DNA of 64,000 nt from Candidatus Aminicenantota bacterium (GTDB lineage: Bacteria > Acidobacteriota > Aminicenantia > Aminicenantales > Saccharicenantaceae). The position numbers and the translations under genes were made by a program. Below the pieces are notes generated by a model. It saw only the letters and a program-made list of their open reading frames with translations. It had not been told where the DNA came from and ran no database searches. Location of the stretch: contig JAPKZD010000013.1 of assembly GCA_026393975.1 (NCBI GenBank), positions 1 to 64,000 on the forward strand, written 5' to 3'. Positions 32,256-38,958 of the stretch are shown one piece after another (the first letter of the stretch is position 1; each line of letters opens with the position of its first letter).

Positions 32256-33206
32256 ATGAAAGGTAAAAAGCAAAGGGGAGAGGCAGGGATTGAAGTGCTC
32301 TTGGAGTATGCCAATAGCATCATTTCTACATTAAGGGAGCCATTTATTGTTTTAGATAAGAGGTTAATTATCATTTTTGCCAACAACGCTTTTTATACGA
32401 CATTTAAGGTTACAGACAAAGGGACAATAGGTCAGCCCCTTCCAAGTTTAGGTAATGGGCAATGGAATATTCCTAAGCTGCTTCAGCTATTACAAGAAAT
32501 TGTACCAAAAAATAGAGTTGTGACAGATTTTGAAGTTGAGCATACATTTAGCCACATTGGACCGCGAGTTATGCTCCTGAGTGCCAGCCAGTTGCGCGTT
32601 CCTAAGCATATAGCAGCAATAATAACGGCAAAGGCAATTGGCGAAAGCGAAGGAGAAGGAGATGAAGAGCTGATCCTTCTGGCTATTGAAGATATCACCG
32701 AGCGTAAGCGTTTACAAAAAGAATTAAAGGATTCCGAGGAGCGTTTTCGCAGGGCCTTTGAAACATCGCGGGATGGATTATTGCTTGTTCATAAAACCGA
32801 AGCTGACATTCTTAATTCCAATGCATCTGTCCAGGGATTGCTGGGTTATTCCCAGCCGGAGTTTTTAAACTTGAAACTCTGGGAAATCGGCGTGACCAAA
32901 GACGACAAGGATTTTCAAGAGACGTTGGTTAAATTGGAAAAAGATGGTGCTGTTTTTTACGAAGATGTGGAAGTCGTAACCAAAAAGGGCCAGAATATAC
33001 ACGCAGATGTTTTTTTGGTTGACAGGGCAAAAGTTATGCAATGCAATATCCGCGACATCACGGAAAGGAAAAAAATACAAGGTGATTTAGAAGAGAAGAT
33101 GAAGAACTTGGAGCGGTTCAGCGACTTTGCCGTGGAAAGAGAATTAAAGATGGAAGAGCTGGAGAAGAAGGAAAAAGAGATGGAGGAAAAGTTAAAAGGC
33201 AAATGA
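32256..33206 (+). CDS. PAS-domain signalling protein without a kinase domain
   Basis: 316 residues. Two PAS domains (about 10-145: FIVLDKRLIIIFANNAFYTT ... LLAIEDITERKR; about 155-275: DGLLLVHKTEADILNSNASV ... CNIRDITERKK) and a C-terminal coiled coil (about 280-316, Glu/Lys-rich). No histidine kinase, GGDEF or output domain. Its stop overlaps the histidine kinase start by 4 bp, so it probably works as a detached sensor subunit. AT-rich relative to the flanks. Confidence 0.85.
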   Translation: MKGKKQRGEAGIEVLLEYANSIISTLREPFIVLDKRLIIIFANNAFYTTFKVTDKGTIGQPLPSLGNGQWNIPKLLQLLQEIVPKNRVVTDFEVEHTFSHIGPRVMLLSASQLRVPKHIAAIITAKAIGESEGEGDEELILLAIEDITERKRLQKELKDSEERFRRAFETSRDGLLLVHKTEADILNSNASVQGLLGYSQPEFLNLKLWEIGVTKDDKDFQETLVKLEKDGAVFYEDVEVVTKKGQNIHADVFLVDRAKVMQCNIRDITERKKIQGDLEEKMKNLERFSDFAVERELKMEELEKKEKEMEEKLKGK

Positions 33207-34852
33207 GTTTTAATGGCCTAGCCAGAAACTTGAATCTTGATCAAGAAGGATATTTCGAGGGCATCATGTCCTCGATGACGGATGCTCTGATCGTGGTTAA
33301 TCCCGATGCTACGCTAAGGTCGGTCAATAGAGCCGCCTTAGATATGTTGGATTACAAGGAAGAGGAACTTATCGGCCAACCGGTGGAAACAATTATTCTC
33401 CAAGAAGAAGGTCAACGGCTTACATGCTTCCAAAATATATTCGTCACTGGCGTGACGTTTAATATGGGTTTAACTTTTCTGACCAAACAGAGGAAGAGAA
33501 TTCCCGTAAATATTAGTGGTGCGGCGATTCAGCAAGAGGGCAAGATTATCGGCATTGTAGGCGTAGCCAGAGATATGCGCCAGATCAGGACAAGCATAAG
33601 CGAGTGGGAGGAGAAGAAAACAGAAATTGAAGAGCGCGGCAAAAAATCAGTCCGGATGCAGAGGGCCATGTTGCATATCATGGGCGATTTGGATATTTCT
33701 AATAAGGAGATAGGAAAGGCAAACAAAGAATTACAGAAACTCGACCAGCTTAAATCTGATTTTGTCTCCACGGTCTCGCATGAATTGCGTTCACCTTTAA
33801 CTGTGACCAGAGAGGCAATTTCGCAGGTATTAGACGGCGTCTGCGGCGAAATCAATGAAGAGCAAAAACAGTTCTTATTCATGTCTATCGAGGGGATTGA
33901 CCGACTAGCGCGCCTCATCGAGAATCTTCTGGATATATCTAAAATTGAGTCGCACAAAATTGATCTCAAAAGAGAATTGGTAGACATCGTGTCTTTAGCT
34001 AAAGAAGTGAGTTCGAGCTTTGCCTTTGCTTTTCAAAGCAAAGGGTTAGTGGCAAAATACAATTTCCCCAAGGATAAGATAGAGCTTTACGTAGATAAAG
34101 ACAGGATTATCCAGATATTCGTGAATTTAATGAGTAATGCCGTTAAATTCACTCCGGCTGGTTATATAGAAATTTCCATCGTTGATAAAGAAAATGTCGT
34201 AGAATGCTTCGTTTCCGATACTGGCATAGGTATTTCAGATGAGGATCTGCTTAAAGTATTTGACAAATTTGAACAATTTGGCCGGGAATTTGAGTGCGCA
34301 GAAAAAGGCACTGGCCTTGGATTGGCTATCTCTAAAGGTAATATTGAATTACATCGGGGACTAATCTGGGCAGAAAGTAAGTTAGGCCAGGGAACTAAGA
34401 TCAGTTTTACCCTGCCCAAATACAGCCCAAGGGAGTTATTTAAGGAATATGTCACTAACGGTTTGGCAAAGGCGATTAAAGCGGGCGCACCTTTATCCAT
34501 TATCGTTTTTGAAGTCAAATATTATGATACCTTACGGGAAAAGTCTGGCCAGGATAAAATCGCATCTATTGTGCACAGTTTAGGGCAGCTCATCAAAACT
34601 GACCTCAGGCGTAAATCGGATATTAGTATTAAAGATAGCCGGGCAATTTTAGTGGTGTTGCCGGAGACCGATAAAAAATGTGCATGGGCAACAGCAGATA
34701 GACTGAAATCAAGTTTTGACGATTACTTATCCAAGGAAGGATTAGTTAAAGACGTAGAGGTTGACTCAAGAATCGCCAGTTTTCCCGAAGATGCTCAGAC
34801 AGAAGAAGAGTTGTTAAATGGAGTGCAATTGCAAGAGAATATAGAAAAATGA
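33203..34852 (+). CDS. PAS histidine kinase with a degenerate GGDEF-like C-terminus
   Basis: 549 residues, no membrane helices. PAS (about 20-125), coiled coil, HisKA (phospho-acceptor His193 in VSHELRSPLT), and HATPase_c (N box NLMSNAVKFTP, G1 DTGIGI, G2 GTGLGLAIS). Residues about 410-545 (PLSIIVFEVKYYDTLREKSG, VHSLGQLIKTDLRRKSD, CAWATADRLKSSFDDYL) resemble a diguanylate cyclase fold, but the GGDEF signature is absent; IKDSRA occupies that position. It is therefore probably a binding or dimerisation domain rather than a cyclase. Two response regulators follow. Confidence 0.88.
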   Translation: MSFNGLARNLNLDQEGYFEGIMSSMTDALIVVNPDATLRSVNRAALDMLDYKEEELIGQPVETIILQEEGQRLTCFQNIFVTGVTFNMGLTFLTKQRKRIPVNISGAAIQQEGKIIGIVGVARDMRQIRTSISEWEEKKTEIEERGKKSVRMQRAMLHIMGDLDISNKEIGKANKELQKLDQLKSDFVSTVSHELRSPLTVTREAISQVLDGVCGEINEEQKQFLFMSIEGIDRLARLIENLLDISKIESHKIDLKRELVDIVSLAKEVSSSFAFAFQSKGLVAKYNFPKDKIELYVDKDRIIQIFVNLMSNAVKFTPAGYIEISIVDKENVVECFVSDTGIGISDEDLLKVFDKFEQFGREFECAEKGTGLGLAISKGNIELHRGLIWAESKLGQGTKISFTLPKYSPRELFKEYVTNGLAKAIKAGAPLSIIVFEVKYYDTLREKSGQDKIASIVHSLGQLIKTDLRRKSDISIKDSRAILVVLPETDKKCAWATADRLKSSFDDYLSKEGLVKDVEVDSRIASFPEDAQTEEELLNGVQLQENIEK

Positions 34853-34874
34853 CTGAAAGGAAGGCTTGATAAAC

Positions 34875-35243
34875 ATGGCTAAGAAAATATTGATTGTTGA
34901 CGATGATAAACGGATTGTTTTACTTCTCGCCTCGCGGCTAAAGGCAAATAACTACGAGATAGCCGTGGCTTATGATGCGTTGCAGGCTGTCGCCCAGGCC
35001 TTTAGCGAGAAACCCGATTTAATTCTTTTAGATATGAAGATGCCTGCGGGTAGCGGTGTCAGCGTGATGGATGATTTAAGGAATTCCACAAATACAGCTT
35101 TGATCCCGGTCATTGTCATTACGGCTTATCCCAGCATTGAAATACAGCAGAAGGTGAAAGAAATGGGGGCTGTAGGTTTTATCTCTAAACCATTTAAGGC
35201 TGAAGATCTGTTGCCGAGGATCAGGAAGGTCTTAGGTGAATAA
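34875..35243 (+). CDS. Single-domain response regulator (REC)
   Basis: 122 residues from ATG 34875; TTG 34866 is an alternative. Receiver domain only: acidic pocket VDDDKR, phospho-acceptor Asp in LILLDMKMP (about 52), Thr in VIVITAY, Lys in ISKPFK. No output domain, so it acts as a phosphotransfer or protein-binding module. It lies 22 bp after the kinase. Confidence 0.92.
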   Translation: MAKKILIVDDDKRIVLLLASRLKANNYEIAVAYDALQAVAQAFSEKPDLILLDMKMPAGSGVSVMDDLRNSTNTALIPVIVITAYPSIEIQQKVKEMGAVGFISKPFKAEDLLPRIRKVLGE

Positions 35244-35268
35244 GCCGAGAAGGGAAGGAATAGAGTAT

Positions 35269-35637
35269 ATGGCTAAGAAAATATTAGTCGTCGACGATGA
35301 ACCTCATCTTGTCAAGTTGTTGCAGGCTAGGCTGGAAAAGAATGGATACAGTGTTATCGTTGCTTCTGACGGTCAGGAAGCCCTTGACAAAACTTATCAG
35401 GAAAATCCGGATTTAATAATATTGGATATCATGTTGCCTATTATCGATGGGTATCATGTTTGTCAAACGCTTAGATCCGATGACAAATATAAAGCAATTC
35501 CCATTATCATGTTGACGGGTCGTACGCTGGCGCAGGACATCAAAATGGGCATGGACTTAGGCGCGGTTTCTTATGTGCAAAAGCCGTTTAAGCCAAATGT
35601 GTTATTGGGGATCATCCAGGGATTAATTAAGAAATAA
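35269..35637 (+). CDS. Single-domain response regulator (REC), second copy
   Basis: 122 residues from ATG 35269 (GGAAGGA upstream); the frame extends upstream to overlap the previous gene. It has the same length and the same opening MAKKIL as its neighbour. Pocket VDDEPH, phospho-acceptor Asp in LIILDIMLP, Thr in IIMLTGR, Lys in VQKPFK. A tandem duplication that has diverged considerably. Last gene of the AT-rich signalling block. Confidence 0.92.
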   Translation: MAKKILVVDDEPHLVKLLQARLEKNGYSVIVASDGQEALDKTYQENPDLIILDIMLPIIDGYHVCQTLRSDDKYKAIPIIMLTGRTLAQDIKMGMDLGAVSYVQKPFKPNVLLGIIQGLIKK

Positions 35638-35695: not shown

Positions 35696-37543
35696 ATGGT
35701 TAGGAGGGAGGATTCAGCGCCGAGAGAGGAAATTCTCGATTCTTGGAAGCAAATCGCTCAATATCTCCATCGCGAAGTCCGGACGTGCTATCGCTGGGCG
35801 AGAGAGCTCGGCCTGCCGGTACATCGTATCAACGACAAATCTCCCAAGTCGAAGGTTTTCGCCTATAAGGACGAAATCGATAAATGGCTGAAGGAAAAAA
35901 CGCGGTATCAGGTTCTGCCCAAGAACGGCGTTCATACGAAAAGACGGCTGATCTATGGGGGCATTTCCATTTTTGCCCTGTTGTCGATCGTCGCCATCGC
36001 CAAGTGGCAACCGTTTACTTCCGGCGGAAGAACCATTTCGGTCGCCGTCGCTCCGCTGAAAAGTCTCGATTCGTCGGAGAACGATGATTATCTCTCCGAA
36101 GTACTCACTCGCGCAATTGCTGAAAATCTCCCGGTTCCAGATAAGCTGAGAGTCATTCCAGCGTTTAGCCTCCGCCGGTCCCCCAAAAATTTCGTCGACG
36201 TGGAAAAGCTCGGTGATGGATTGGATGCTGATTACGTCTTAAGGGGAGAGGTCAAGAAGGGGAATCCCACGATCCAGGTCTCTGTCGAACTTGTCCGGAC
36301 AAACGGAGGTTCGATCATCTGGGCGTCGCCGTTCTTGGAACCGCTCGAAAAAGTATTGACCATCCCGCCGAGCATTTGCGCGGCGATTCACAGAGTTCTG
36401 AAGATAAGCAGCGAGACCTTGGCCAGGAATAGTATTTATCCCAAGGACTACCGAGCCCTGGACAGCTATCTCAAGGGCGATTTCATCCTCGGCCGTCTTA
36501 ACTCGGGAAGTGATGACCCCTGGCAGCTTTACCACCAAGGAGAATATCATGCCGGGCGGTTCACGCCCGAGGCCAATGAGCTGGCGATAAAGCTGTTCTC
36601 TCAAGCGAAAGAGATCGACCCCACGTTTGCCCTAGCCTATATCGGACTCGCTTCTTGTTATGCGAACTATGTCAACTTTAACTGGCAATATAATATTTCC
36701 TGGCTCAATAAGGCCGAAGAGCTTCTTGCCAAAGCCCAAGCTCTTGCTCCTGACTTGCCGGAATACTATGGCGCTCTTATTACGGTAAAAATCCTCAAAG
36801 AAGCCGGTTTCTCAGAAGACGTTTGGACCTCGGTTGAGAAGCTCGTCGCGGAGGGAGTCAAGAGATGCGGCAGTAATCCCCGGCTTAACTCGATCATCGG
36901 CTATTTTTATTATAGAAAGTTCGGGAGAGAAGGGGACATGGGGGCTTTCCAAATGGCCCTGGAATACAAAGAGAGGAGTTTTTGGCTGGATCCCTATGAC
37001 ATTGGGAACGTTGTCTATGCCAACATCTTGTTGCTCGACAAGAAGTTCGCTAAGGCTTTAGAAGTATGCGATATTCTTGGAAAAGTGGATGAAACCCGCA
37101 TGTCCAAGTTTCTGAGAGGGGAGATTTATTATTACATGGGGGATTTCGATCGAAGCAGGTCGGTTTTTGAGCAACTTACGGCTGATTCTCTTGAGTACAA
37201 GATAGGCGCCCTATATTATTTGGCGATGATCTCCGCCGGAAAAGGCGAGGCCTCTAAGGCTAAAAAGAACATGGAGGAGATCGAATTCTTATCGCCCGAT
37301 GAATTTGTCTATTTCGAGAAAGAGCTCAAGTTGGCATCGATTTGGGCCGGACTGGGCGAGAAAGTCCTCGCCTCTAAAACACTCGAGGCTTTCCTGAATG
37401 ATCCCAAAAATCAAAAAGATTATTATATTTACAAAAAATATATCGAGCTCGATAACAACTTCCTTCAGATGAGGCATGATAAAGTCTTTGAGAATAATTT
37501 TAACTTCAAGGGAGAGACTCATGGCAAAAAGCAAGACAATTAG
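35696..37543 (+). CDS. Membrane-anchored HTH regulator with TolB-like and TPR regions
   Basis: 615 residues. An N-terminal excisionase/MerR-type HTH (about 15-65: DSWKQIAQYLHREVRTCYRW ... FAYKDEIDKWL), one membrane helix (about 82-102), a FlgO/TolB-like domain (about 108-230: AVAPLKSLDSSENDDYLSEV, DADYVLRGEVKKGNPTIQV), then a long helical TPR region (about 270-600). This layout is common in Acidobacteria-type genomes and is thought to link an extracytoplasmic signal to transcription. Its 3' end overlaps the small peptide gene by 23 bp, tying it to the radical SAM locus. Confidence 0.85.
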   Translation: MVRREDSAPREEILDSWKQIAQYLHREVRTCYRWARELGLPVHRINDKSPKSKVFAYKDEIDKWLKEKTRYQVLPKNGVHTKRRLIYGGISIFALLSIVAIAKWQPFTSGGRTISVAVAPLKSLDSSENDDYLSEVLTRAIAENLPVPDKLRVIPAFSLRRSPKNFVDVEKLGDGLDADYVLRGEVKKGNPTIQVSVELVRTNGGSIIWASPFLEPLEKVLTIPPSICAAIHRVLKISSETLARNSIYPKDYRALDSYLKGDFILGRLNSGSDDPWQLYHQGEYHAGRFTPEANELAIKLFSQAKEIDPTFALAYIGLASCYANYVNFNWQYNISWLNKAEELLAKAQALAPDLPEYYGALITVKILKEAGFSEDVWTSVEKLVAEGVKRCGSNPRLNSIIGYFYYRKFGREGDMGAFQMALEYKERSFWLDPYDIGNVVYANILLLDKKFAKALEVCDILGKVDETRMSKFLRGEIYYYMGDFDRSRSVFEQLTADSLEYKIGALYYLAMISAGKGEASKAKKNMEEIEFLSPDEFVYFEKELKLASIWAGLGEKVLASKTLEAFLNDPKNQKDYYIYKKYIELDNNFLQMRHDKVFENNFNFKGETHGKKQDN

Positions 37544-37730
37544 AGCCACGCCTAATGTCCTGAAGTGCGCGAAAGTCCTTCGAGAGGCTCTGAAATCGCT
37601 TCCGGCCGGGGAGGCTAAAACCAGGGCGATGCGCGCCATTGATTATCTAGACCGGACGTTCTCGGGAGAGCCGCAGCCGAATAGGGGGATTTTCTGCCCG
37701 GTCGACAAGGGGATCGTGAGGGAGCCATAG
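37521..37730 (+). CDS. Small peptide, candidate radical SAM substrate (RiPP precursor)
   Basis: 69 residues; GGGAGAG lies 4 bases before the ATG and the gene starts within the end of the regulator gene. A basic amphipathic helix-forming first part (TPNVLKCAKVLREALKSL, residues 10-27) could be a leader. The tail (GEPQPNRGIFCPVDKGIVREP, residues 49-69) is Pro/Gly-rich with one Cys (Cys59); the other Cys is Cys16. It lies 47 bp before a radical SAM/SPASM gene, the classic place for a maturase substrate. No known precursor family is recognised. Precursor status is inferred from context. Confidence 0.6.
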   Translation: MAKSKTIRATPNVLKCAKVLREALKSLPAGEAKTRAMRAIDYLDRTFSGEPQPNRGIFCPVDKGIVREP

Positions 37731-37777
37731 CGGATCCTTTCCGGTCCAAATAGCAGTCCGATAAGCTCGTCTGTGAA

Positions 37778-38850
37778 ATGAGAATCCGAGGCCTGTCTTT
37801 TATTCTCACGAATCGATGCAATTTCCGCTGCCGATACTGTTACGAAGCTAAAAACGATGAAACGATGGGCTTTTCCACCTTCCGGCAAGCTATTGTTTTT
37901 TTTTGCCTCGATTGGGCAACGAATATTCCCTCAATTTCTACGGAGGGGAGCCGCTCCTGTGCCTTGACCTCATAAGGAAGGCTGTCTATTTCGCCGAGAA
38001 GCTCGGCCGAGAATCCGGCTCTAGGCCGCGATACTCGCTCACGACCAACGGAAGCCTGATCACGGCCGAAGCAATTCGGCTTTTTAATGAATACCGTTTT
38101 GCCTTAGAGATCAGTTTCGACGGAACCGCCCAGGAAACCTGCCGGCAGAAGGGGAGTTCCGTAAAAATCATCCGAAACATCAAGAAACTGCTGGCCTGCC
38201 CGGATATCCAACTCGAGGTCAACAGCGTCTCCACGCCCGGCACGGTCCAACATCTCAGCGAGTCAGCCCGGAGCATCCTCGACCTGGGAGTTCCGAGTGT
38301 TCAAGTCTCGATCTCGGCGATTGAGCGCTGGTCCAAGGTTTCCCTGAGAAGACTGAGGGCGGAAATGAAAGCCCTGCGGGAGGTCGCCATAGAACATTTC
38401 CGGAAAACGGGGAACGTCGGCATCGCCAATTTCAAGGGTCCCCGGGGAAAAGGCTTTTTTTTCTGCGCGGGGGGGCAAGACAGGTTCGCCATCGCCCCTG
38501 ATGGCGGGATTTGGGGCTGTTTCTTATTCCCCGGGTTCTTCCGCGGCAAGGAGAAGACCGCCGAATACCGGTCGTATTATTTCGGCCGGGTAGATGACCT
38601 GGCGGTCAGCCTGAAAAAAGCCATCCCAAGGGTAGCGGCGAAATATGCCCGGCTCTCGCTGGACAATTTTTCCACCCGTCTTGGTCCTTGTCTTTTTTGC
38701 CCTGAATTCGAGACCTGCGCCGTATGCCCCATCGCCGCGGCCCTCTCAGGCTCTCCCCTGGGGAAAATCCCGGACGATATCTGCGAGATCCAGCGTATCC
38801 AGCTCCGCGAACGCCGGGAACTCGATAAAGAGCTGACCGGCGCGAGCTGA
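37778..38850 (+). CDS. Radical SAM/SPASM peptide maturase, frame interrupted at a T9 run
   Basis: The first frame opens at ATG 37778 with the cluster motif TNRCNFRCRYCYE and stops at 37973-37975. The second frame carries the rest of the domain without a gap: LNFYGGEPLL, TTNGSL, EISFDGT, and a C-terminal SPASM-like set (CAGGQDRFAIAPDGGIWGC, then CLFCPEFETCAVCP). The join is at T9 (37896-37904): one extra T, or a -1 shift, restores about 357 continuous residues (QAIVFF-LPRLGNEYS). SPASM maturases install thioether, C-C or other crosslinks in peptides using a [4Fe-4S] cluster and S-adenosylmethionine. The 69-residue peptide upstream is the likely substrate. Confidence 0.8.
37896..37904 (+). other. 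T9 homopolymer at the maturase frame change
   Basis: Nine consecutive T between GTA-like flanks (TATTG and GCCTCG). Upstream codons read in one frame and the conserved downstream sequence in the -1 frame. It could be an assembly error, a true inactivating deletion, transcriptional slippage, or programmed -1 frameshifting. Confidence 0.85.
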
Positions 38851-38958
38851 TCCGCATAGAGCCGGGTGCGGACCAAGACGTAGCCGGAGGCCGAGCGGGT
38901 GGGAAAATACATGATCCGGCCGCGAGGGAATTGAGAATTCAGGGAAGAAAGCGGGGTT

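Follow-up and report, generated by a model that had tools for sequence, protein, structure and literature searches.

A 64,000-nucleotide stretch of DNA from an Aminicenantes-type acidobacterium (hereafter the window) encodes, at 35696-38850, a regulator of HTH-TM-TPR layout, a peptide of 69 aa and a radical SAM/SPASM enzyme. Comparison of this cassette with its relatives makes it probable that these genes represent a new RiPP precursor/maturase family of Aminicenantes-type Acidobacteriota, in which the dose of the maturase would be set by programmed recoding, more likely through slippage of RNA polymerase. In eight species the maturase proved unreadable in a single frame, and the comparison shows that one extra U, or a shift of the ribosome to the -1 frame, would give the full enzyme.

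A conserved cassette of regulator, peptide and maturase

The features of the cassette, all on the forward (+) strand, are as follows.

35696-37543, +: membrane-anchored regulator with an N-terminal HTH, one TM segment and a C-terminal part that is TolB-like and carries TPR repeats (Pfam and reading of the sequence); it adjoins the peptide gene in all order-level loci
35660 and 35696, +: the two start options of the regulator ORF, a TTG (35660, the opening of the ORF) and an ATG (35696)
37521-37730, +: 69-aa putative RiPP precursor, with a conserved leader-like part (TPNVLKC...LPAGE...YLDRTFSGEPQP) and a variable tail with the invariant Cys59 (CPVDKGIV)
37695-37697, +: codon for Cys59, the only invariant tail residue in an alignment of 12 sequences
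37778-37975, +: N part of the maturase in the zero frame, 65 aa, with CxxxCxxC at 37817-37840, ending at the zero-frame stop
37896-37904, +: T9 run, the putative slip site (zero frame GTT TTT TTT TGC; shifted frame ..F F L P), which contains U_UUU_UUU
37903-38850, +: C part of the maturase in the -1 frame, comprising the rest of the barrel (NFYGGEP) and a SPASM-like domain; 357 aa together with the N part
38464-38784, +: seven SPASM-type cysteines (codons at 38464, 38518, 38689, 38698, 38716, 38725 and 38782)

The TPR repeats of the regulator are matched by Pfam, its HTH_17-like N terminus is a weak Pfam match, and its membrane segment was read off the sequence. The peptide ORF opens at 37521, where the regulator ORF has yet to reach its stop (37543), with a Shine-Dalgarno-like stretch, AAGGGAGAG, immediately 5' of the peptide ORF, and its stop is separated by 47 nt from the maturase ATG at 37778. 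An earlier sequence-only reading of this DNA had described just such an arrangement, and the overlap, the Shine-Dalgarno sequence, the 47-nt gap, the CxxxCxxC motif and the C-terminal SPASM-type cysteines were all borne out. The same trio of genes was found again in 12 other species, one contig ending inside the maturase gene, a recurrence that on these sequences is far beyond chance.

While most of the window has a GC content of 58-69%, it contains a low-GC stretch at 32-38.9 kb. Beside the cassette, positions 32256-35637 form a block of 42% GC in a genome of 60-68% GC, with two PAS/histidine-kinase-type genes and two response regulators. Since DNA comparison also found no counterpart of this block at the matching place in genomes G162 and G434, it appears to be a separate horizontal insertion.

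The peptide defines a family with a single invariant tail cysteine

The alignment of the peptide tail proposed in the sequence-only reading was made with 12 members, and it separates a conserved leader-like half from a tail that varies around one invariant Cys. Met1, Pro28 and Cys59 are invariant, conservation is high over positions 1-53, and the tails are variations on C-P-x4-[IV]-[IV], with CPTSKPVI, CLPNKPIV, CPIGKVFI and CIKPLRVW as other tails of the same spacing. The family has no conserved acidic residue, which disfavours a Cys-Asp/Glu crosslink of the PapB type, as described for PapA (PMC9413430), as its shared chemistry.

The suggestion that the peptide belongs to no established family also held: NCBIfam has no model for it, the matches in Pfam are marginal, and neither collection assigns the peptides consistently, a single member of the 12 having a marginal DUF6694 match (E 6e-4). 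Searches of PHROGs and of a plasmid collection returned no match to the peptide. Matches with E values of 0.004-0.008 in distant families were weak and were treated as noise.

Peptide and maturase genes are kept together

We identified 25 maturase loci in 23 genomes in a search across the 94 genomes of the order, and at 12 of these loci the same peptide and the same regulator are present. Genome G404 represents a thirteenth species, in which the regulator, the peptide and the first 15 codons of the maturase precede the end of the contig. In the maturase tree, the order's other loci fall into a sister group, most of whose members are accompanied upstream by small ORFs that look unrelated by eye and end in a one-Cys tail (e.g. 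CTGLIPSI, CPAQIPRISP). In G460 (locus L031), the sister-subfamily peptide encoded 5' of the maturase has two tandem copies of the tail (CGAVSRISPMP and CTGGVPRISPMP), and resembles a precursor with multiple cores.

Across the class, a peptide profile detected 19 loci, spread over 18 genomes, with the maturase gene adjacent at 15, about 1.6 kb away at one (G469:C1152) and elsewhere in the same genome at the other three (G417, G426 and G469:C415). A small putative precursor therefore adjoins the maturase and is kept together with it, which supports the proposal of a RiPP-type locus with an unclassified precursor. That proposal had been staked on peptide homologues not being found away from radical SAM genes; a few such cases do exist, but none lies in a genome that lacks the maturase.

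These cases bear on a different reading of the peptide, as a small partner or regulatory protein of the TPR regulator that is no RiPP substrate. In G417 and G426 the regulator and peptide stand without an adjacent maturase, as would be expected of such a partner. Both genomes, however, carry a maturase elsewhere; G467 and G470 have peptides beside the maturase where no HTH regulator was detected; and the maturases of the sister subfamily are preceded by other peptides that likewise combine a leader-like part with a one-Cys tail. We therefore regard a partner protein as improbable, and treat the peptide as a putative precursor in what follows.

Across larger neighbourhoods in 13 other genomes and the window, the regulator, peptide and maturase were the only widely common genes, and no recurrent transporter or protease was found there. 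The downstream RND operon shares synteny with G162 only. As it is not a conserved neighbour, there is no evidence for the earlier idea that this RND/TolC operon exports the product.

Several loci depart from the common arrangement. In G470 (L121, 2739-5810), a peptide/maturase pair lies beside a gene for a 1023-aa protein-kinase-like protein that falls in one cluster with the HTH-TPR regulators and may join the same sensor part to a different output domain. G469 and G470 (L099-L109) have several maturase paralogues each (about four to six), an expansion in which the peptides are partly orphans. Finally, most of the maturase (window 37830-38860 against L012) is 96-98% identical at the DNA level between the genome of the window (G000) and G162, whereas identity drops to 60-74% across the peptide, the intergenic region and the first part of the maturase. 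It looks as though recombination had replaced the body of the maturase and the precursor had meanwhile diverged.

The maturase resembles thioether-forming enzymes but falls outside their families

The enzyme has a radical SAM core with CxxxCxxC, and its seven C-terminal cysteines are conserved. Their spacing includes C-x2-C-x5-C-x2-C, whereas the textbook SPASM spacing has x3. The top match among solved structures was PDB 5wgg (E 3e-23), which we take to be CteB, the SCIFF maturase. The best NCBIfam model was NF047865 (PapB), which the C part matched with 89.5 bits against a cut-off of 340 bits, and the maturase scored far below the cut-off of every family. By sequence, its nearest relatives are thus thioether-forming peptide maturases.

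With PapB-type ranthipeptide maturases (NF047865) and CteB (5wgg) the enzyme shares the radical SAM core, SPASM-type cysteines and an adjacent small peptide, but it differs from both in having no N-terminal extension ahead of the radical SAM core. The precursors differ as well. PapA carries six CX3D/E motifs (PMC9413430), whereas the peptide described here has one tail Cys and no repeat of this motif; the single tail cysteine without a conserved acidic partner also sets it apart from known ranthipeptides in general. Since neither the curated score nor the CX3D/E precursor motif was matched, assignment to the PapB family of ranthipeptide maturases (NF047865) was rejected. Profiles of Nif11, CcpM, HxsB and other SPASM peptide maturases match the radical SAM core below threshold, while the precursors of Nif11/CcpM/HxsB-type systems are unrelated to our peptide according to NCBIfam and Pfam. 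A predicted structure of the C part, built from three near-identical sequences, had a mean pLDDT of 42 and was too poor for use.

The maturase gene is broken at the same T run in eight species

The maturase gene is not a single ORF: the N part (37778-37975) occupies one frame and the C part (from 37903) another, the two meeting around the T9 run. The sequence-only reading had treated this as a fault to be corrected, but the same break is conserved in eight species. These species belong to three families (G000, G162 and G434; G344, G422, G423 and G398; G430), and all are split at the same codon, in a run at codons 40-43 that is T9 in six of them and T8 in two and is followed by GCC or ACC ([AG]CC). 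Addition of one T yields products of 355-377 aa (236 aa for one at a contig end), which align through the junction without a gap to in-frame homologues, e.g. AIVFFLPRL against AVDYFLPRS. Against a profile built from in-frame homologues only, the shifted products scored 312-478 bits, as against 44-56 bits for the native zero-frame products, a gain of about 255-425 bits from the shifted reading. In profile scores, one added T was better than the removal of two T in all eight split genes.

The run itself is under evident constraint. It is the longest invariant nucleotide block in the alignment of the eight split genes, with 8 T in the DNA (nine alignment columns, one of which is the base added for alignment), the next longest being 5 nt; across these genes 3% of codons have an invariant third position, yet all three codons of the run do. 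A T9 is rare: 2.95 Mb, counted on both strands with coding and noncoding sequence together, contain 17 separate runs, and none of the 17 in-frame relatives in the same order has more than six T at this site. In other orders and classes, all maturase relatives found are in frame.

Four species with the same cassette have a maturase in one frame, so the system can exist without recoding. The split genes do not form one clade on the maturase tree, and at least two changes of state are forced; G430, which is split, and G429, which is in frame, are sisters within one genus. The frame downstream of the break is under purifying selection, with a dN/dS of 0.23-0.27 for the C part in the close trio, and no split gene has a second frame break, at 41-48% identity. 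The break is thus shared by divergent homologues and sits at a constrained, slippery sequence.

Could the break be an artefact of sequencing or assembly, the real genes being one T longer and in frame? A homopolymer is the classic place for such errors, and most of the genomes compared are probably metagenome assemblies. For this, however, the assemblies of eight different species would each have to lack exactly one T at this site, although another run of that gene, a T8 (GGC TTT TTT TTC TGC, near 38455), was assembled in frame, and an error would leave unexplained why the T run is the sole long invariant nucleotide block. We give this explanation scarcely any credence. Only a little more can be granted to a frameshifted pseudogene, or to phase-variable on/off switching by mutation of the run length. 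T9 tracts can indeed mutate through replication slippage, but the phase is identical in all eight genes, no sampled member with a T run is in the on phase, and the constraint on the C parts, which show no other breaks at about 41-48% identity, contradicts a pseudogene.

The two reading frames overlap around the run, and the gene might in principle encode two polypeptides, a CxxxCxxC fragment and a C-terminal domain, that reassemble. In G344, G422 and G423, however, the C frame has no ATG, GTG or TTG before GGEP, the first possible start falling at residue 94-111, after GGEP, which excludes separate translation of a complete C part in these species. In the other split species, the only candidates in the C frame are TTG codons in front of which we could see no Shine-Dalgarno sequence by eye. 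We consider reassembly the least credible of these explanations. The break at the same site in eight species, the invariant T run, the purifying selection on the C parts, the C frames without a start in three species and the absence of the run from in-frame homologues together make sequencing error and pseudogene very unlikely, and point to recoding at the T run.

Polymerase slippage is the more likely route to the full enzyme

Recoding at this site could take place in the transcript, where slippage of RNA polymerase would add a U, or on the ribosome, by programmed -1 frameshifting at U_UUU_UUU; the product and the biology would otherwise be the same. Several features would suit the ribosome: U_UUU_UUU lies in the needed frame (zero-frame TTT TTT) at all eight sites, and the invariant third positions coincide exactly with this heptamer. 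Moreover, two of the eight sites have only T8, a run on the short side for the polymerase of many bacteria to slip on efficiently. The stimulators of frameshifting, on the other hand, are not in evidence, as no hairpin or Shine-Dalgarno-like element at proper spacing was shared among the split sites in a search of downstream hairpin folds and upstream sequence. A single species has an AGGAAG 12 nt upstream, and downstream of the run, folding clearly surpassed that of shuffled sequence in G344 and G422 alone, through a hairpin that lies more than 30 nt away. Slippage of the polymerase would demand nothing besides the run itself. Given a run of 8-9 T and no shared stimulator, we favour transcriptional slippage as the more likely mechanism, and think a ribosomal shift somewhat unlikely.

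Slippage at a site of this kind has precedents in other genes. According to Baranov et al., nine is the run length at which selection is seen in many genomes, the conservation of a run such as T9 among homologues is a sign of purposeful slippage, and 8-A runs are reported to be productive in some bacteria (PMC1088944). In Shigella flexneri, mxiE (through one added U) and spa13 (through slippage) each yield a longer functional product from two overlapping ORFs (PMC1088944, PMC5009743). Those are type III secretion genes, whereas the gene described here encodes a RiPP maturase, in an unrelated phylum, and its site is conserved across families. Conserved A/T runs also serve recoding in Thermus dnaX and in IS-element transposases (PMC1088944); slippage in dnaX gives a shorter extra product, whereas here it would be needed for the enzyme itself. 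In open-access full text that pairs radical SAM or RiPP with slippage or programmed frameshifting, we found no precedent for a recoded radical SAM maturase, an absence that is no proof, and radical SAM genes go unmentioned in the main text of the GeneTack survey of conserved frame transitions (PMC3711429). A search of the open-access literature for RiPPs of Aminicenantes likewise yielded no paper.

A model for dosage of the maturase

Taken with the operon layout, these observations suggest a model in which most transcripts or ribosomes would yield a dead-end N fragment of 45-65 aa and a fraction would yield active maturase, so that the ratio of maturase to precursor would be low. Recoding would fix this low ratio within a compact operon, and control of the maturase dose relative to the precursor is its likely purpose. 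With moderate confidence we place the recoding step in transcription; a -1 shift of the ribosome at U_UUU_UUU would lead to an identical protein. As for the peptide, its chemistry and function we can only infer: the enzyme might link the tail Cys in a thioether, with the conserved pair of aliphatic residues located six to seven positions further on as a possible partner, and the TPR part of the regulator might read the product or an envelope signal. The fullest version of this scheme, a new RiPP class in which the enzyme arises only via slippage, the efficiency of slippage controls precursor maturation and a tail crosslinked from Cys to an aliphatic residue signals to the membrane TPR regulator, strikes us as rather doubtful.

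For RiPP mining, the conserved break has a practical consequence: genomes with a maturase that looks broken are easily thrown out or silently repaired, and here the break is a conserved feature. For this almost uncultured group, the cassette provides a new precursor family with a directly testable recoding site. Its conservation suggests that the dose of the maturase relative to the precursor is under selection, and would bring natural-product biosynthesis among the bacterial functions that use programmed slippage.
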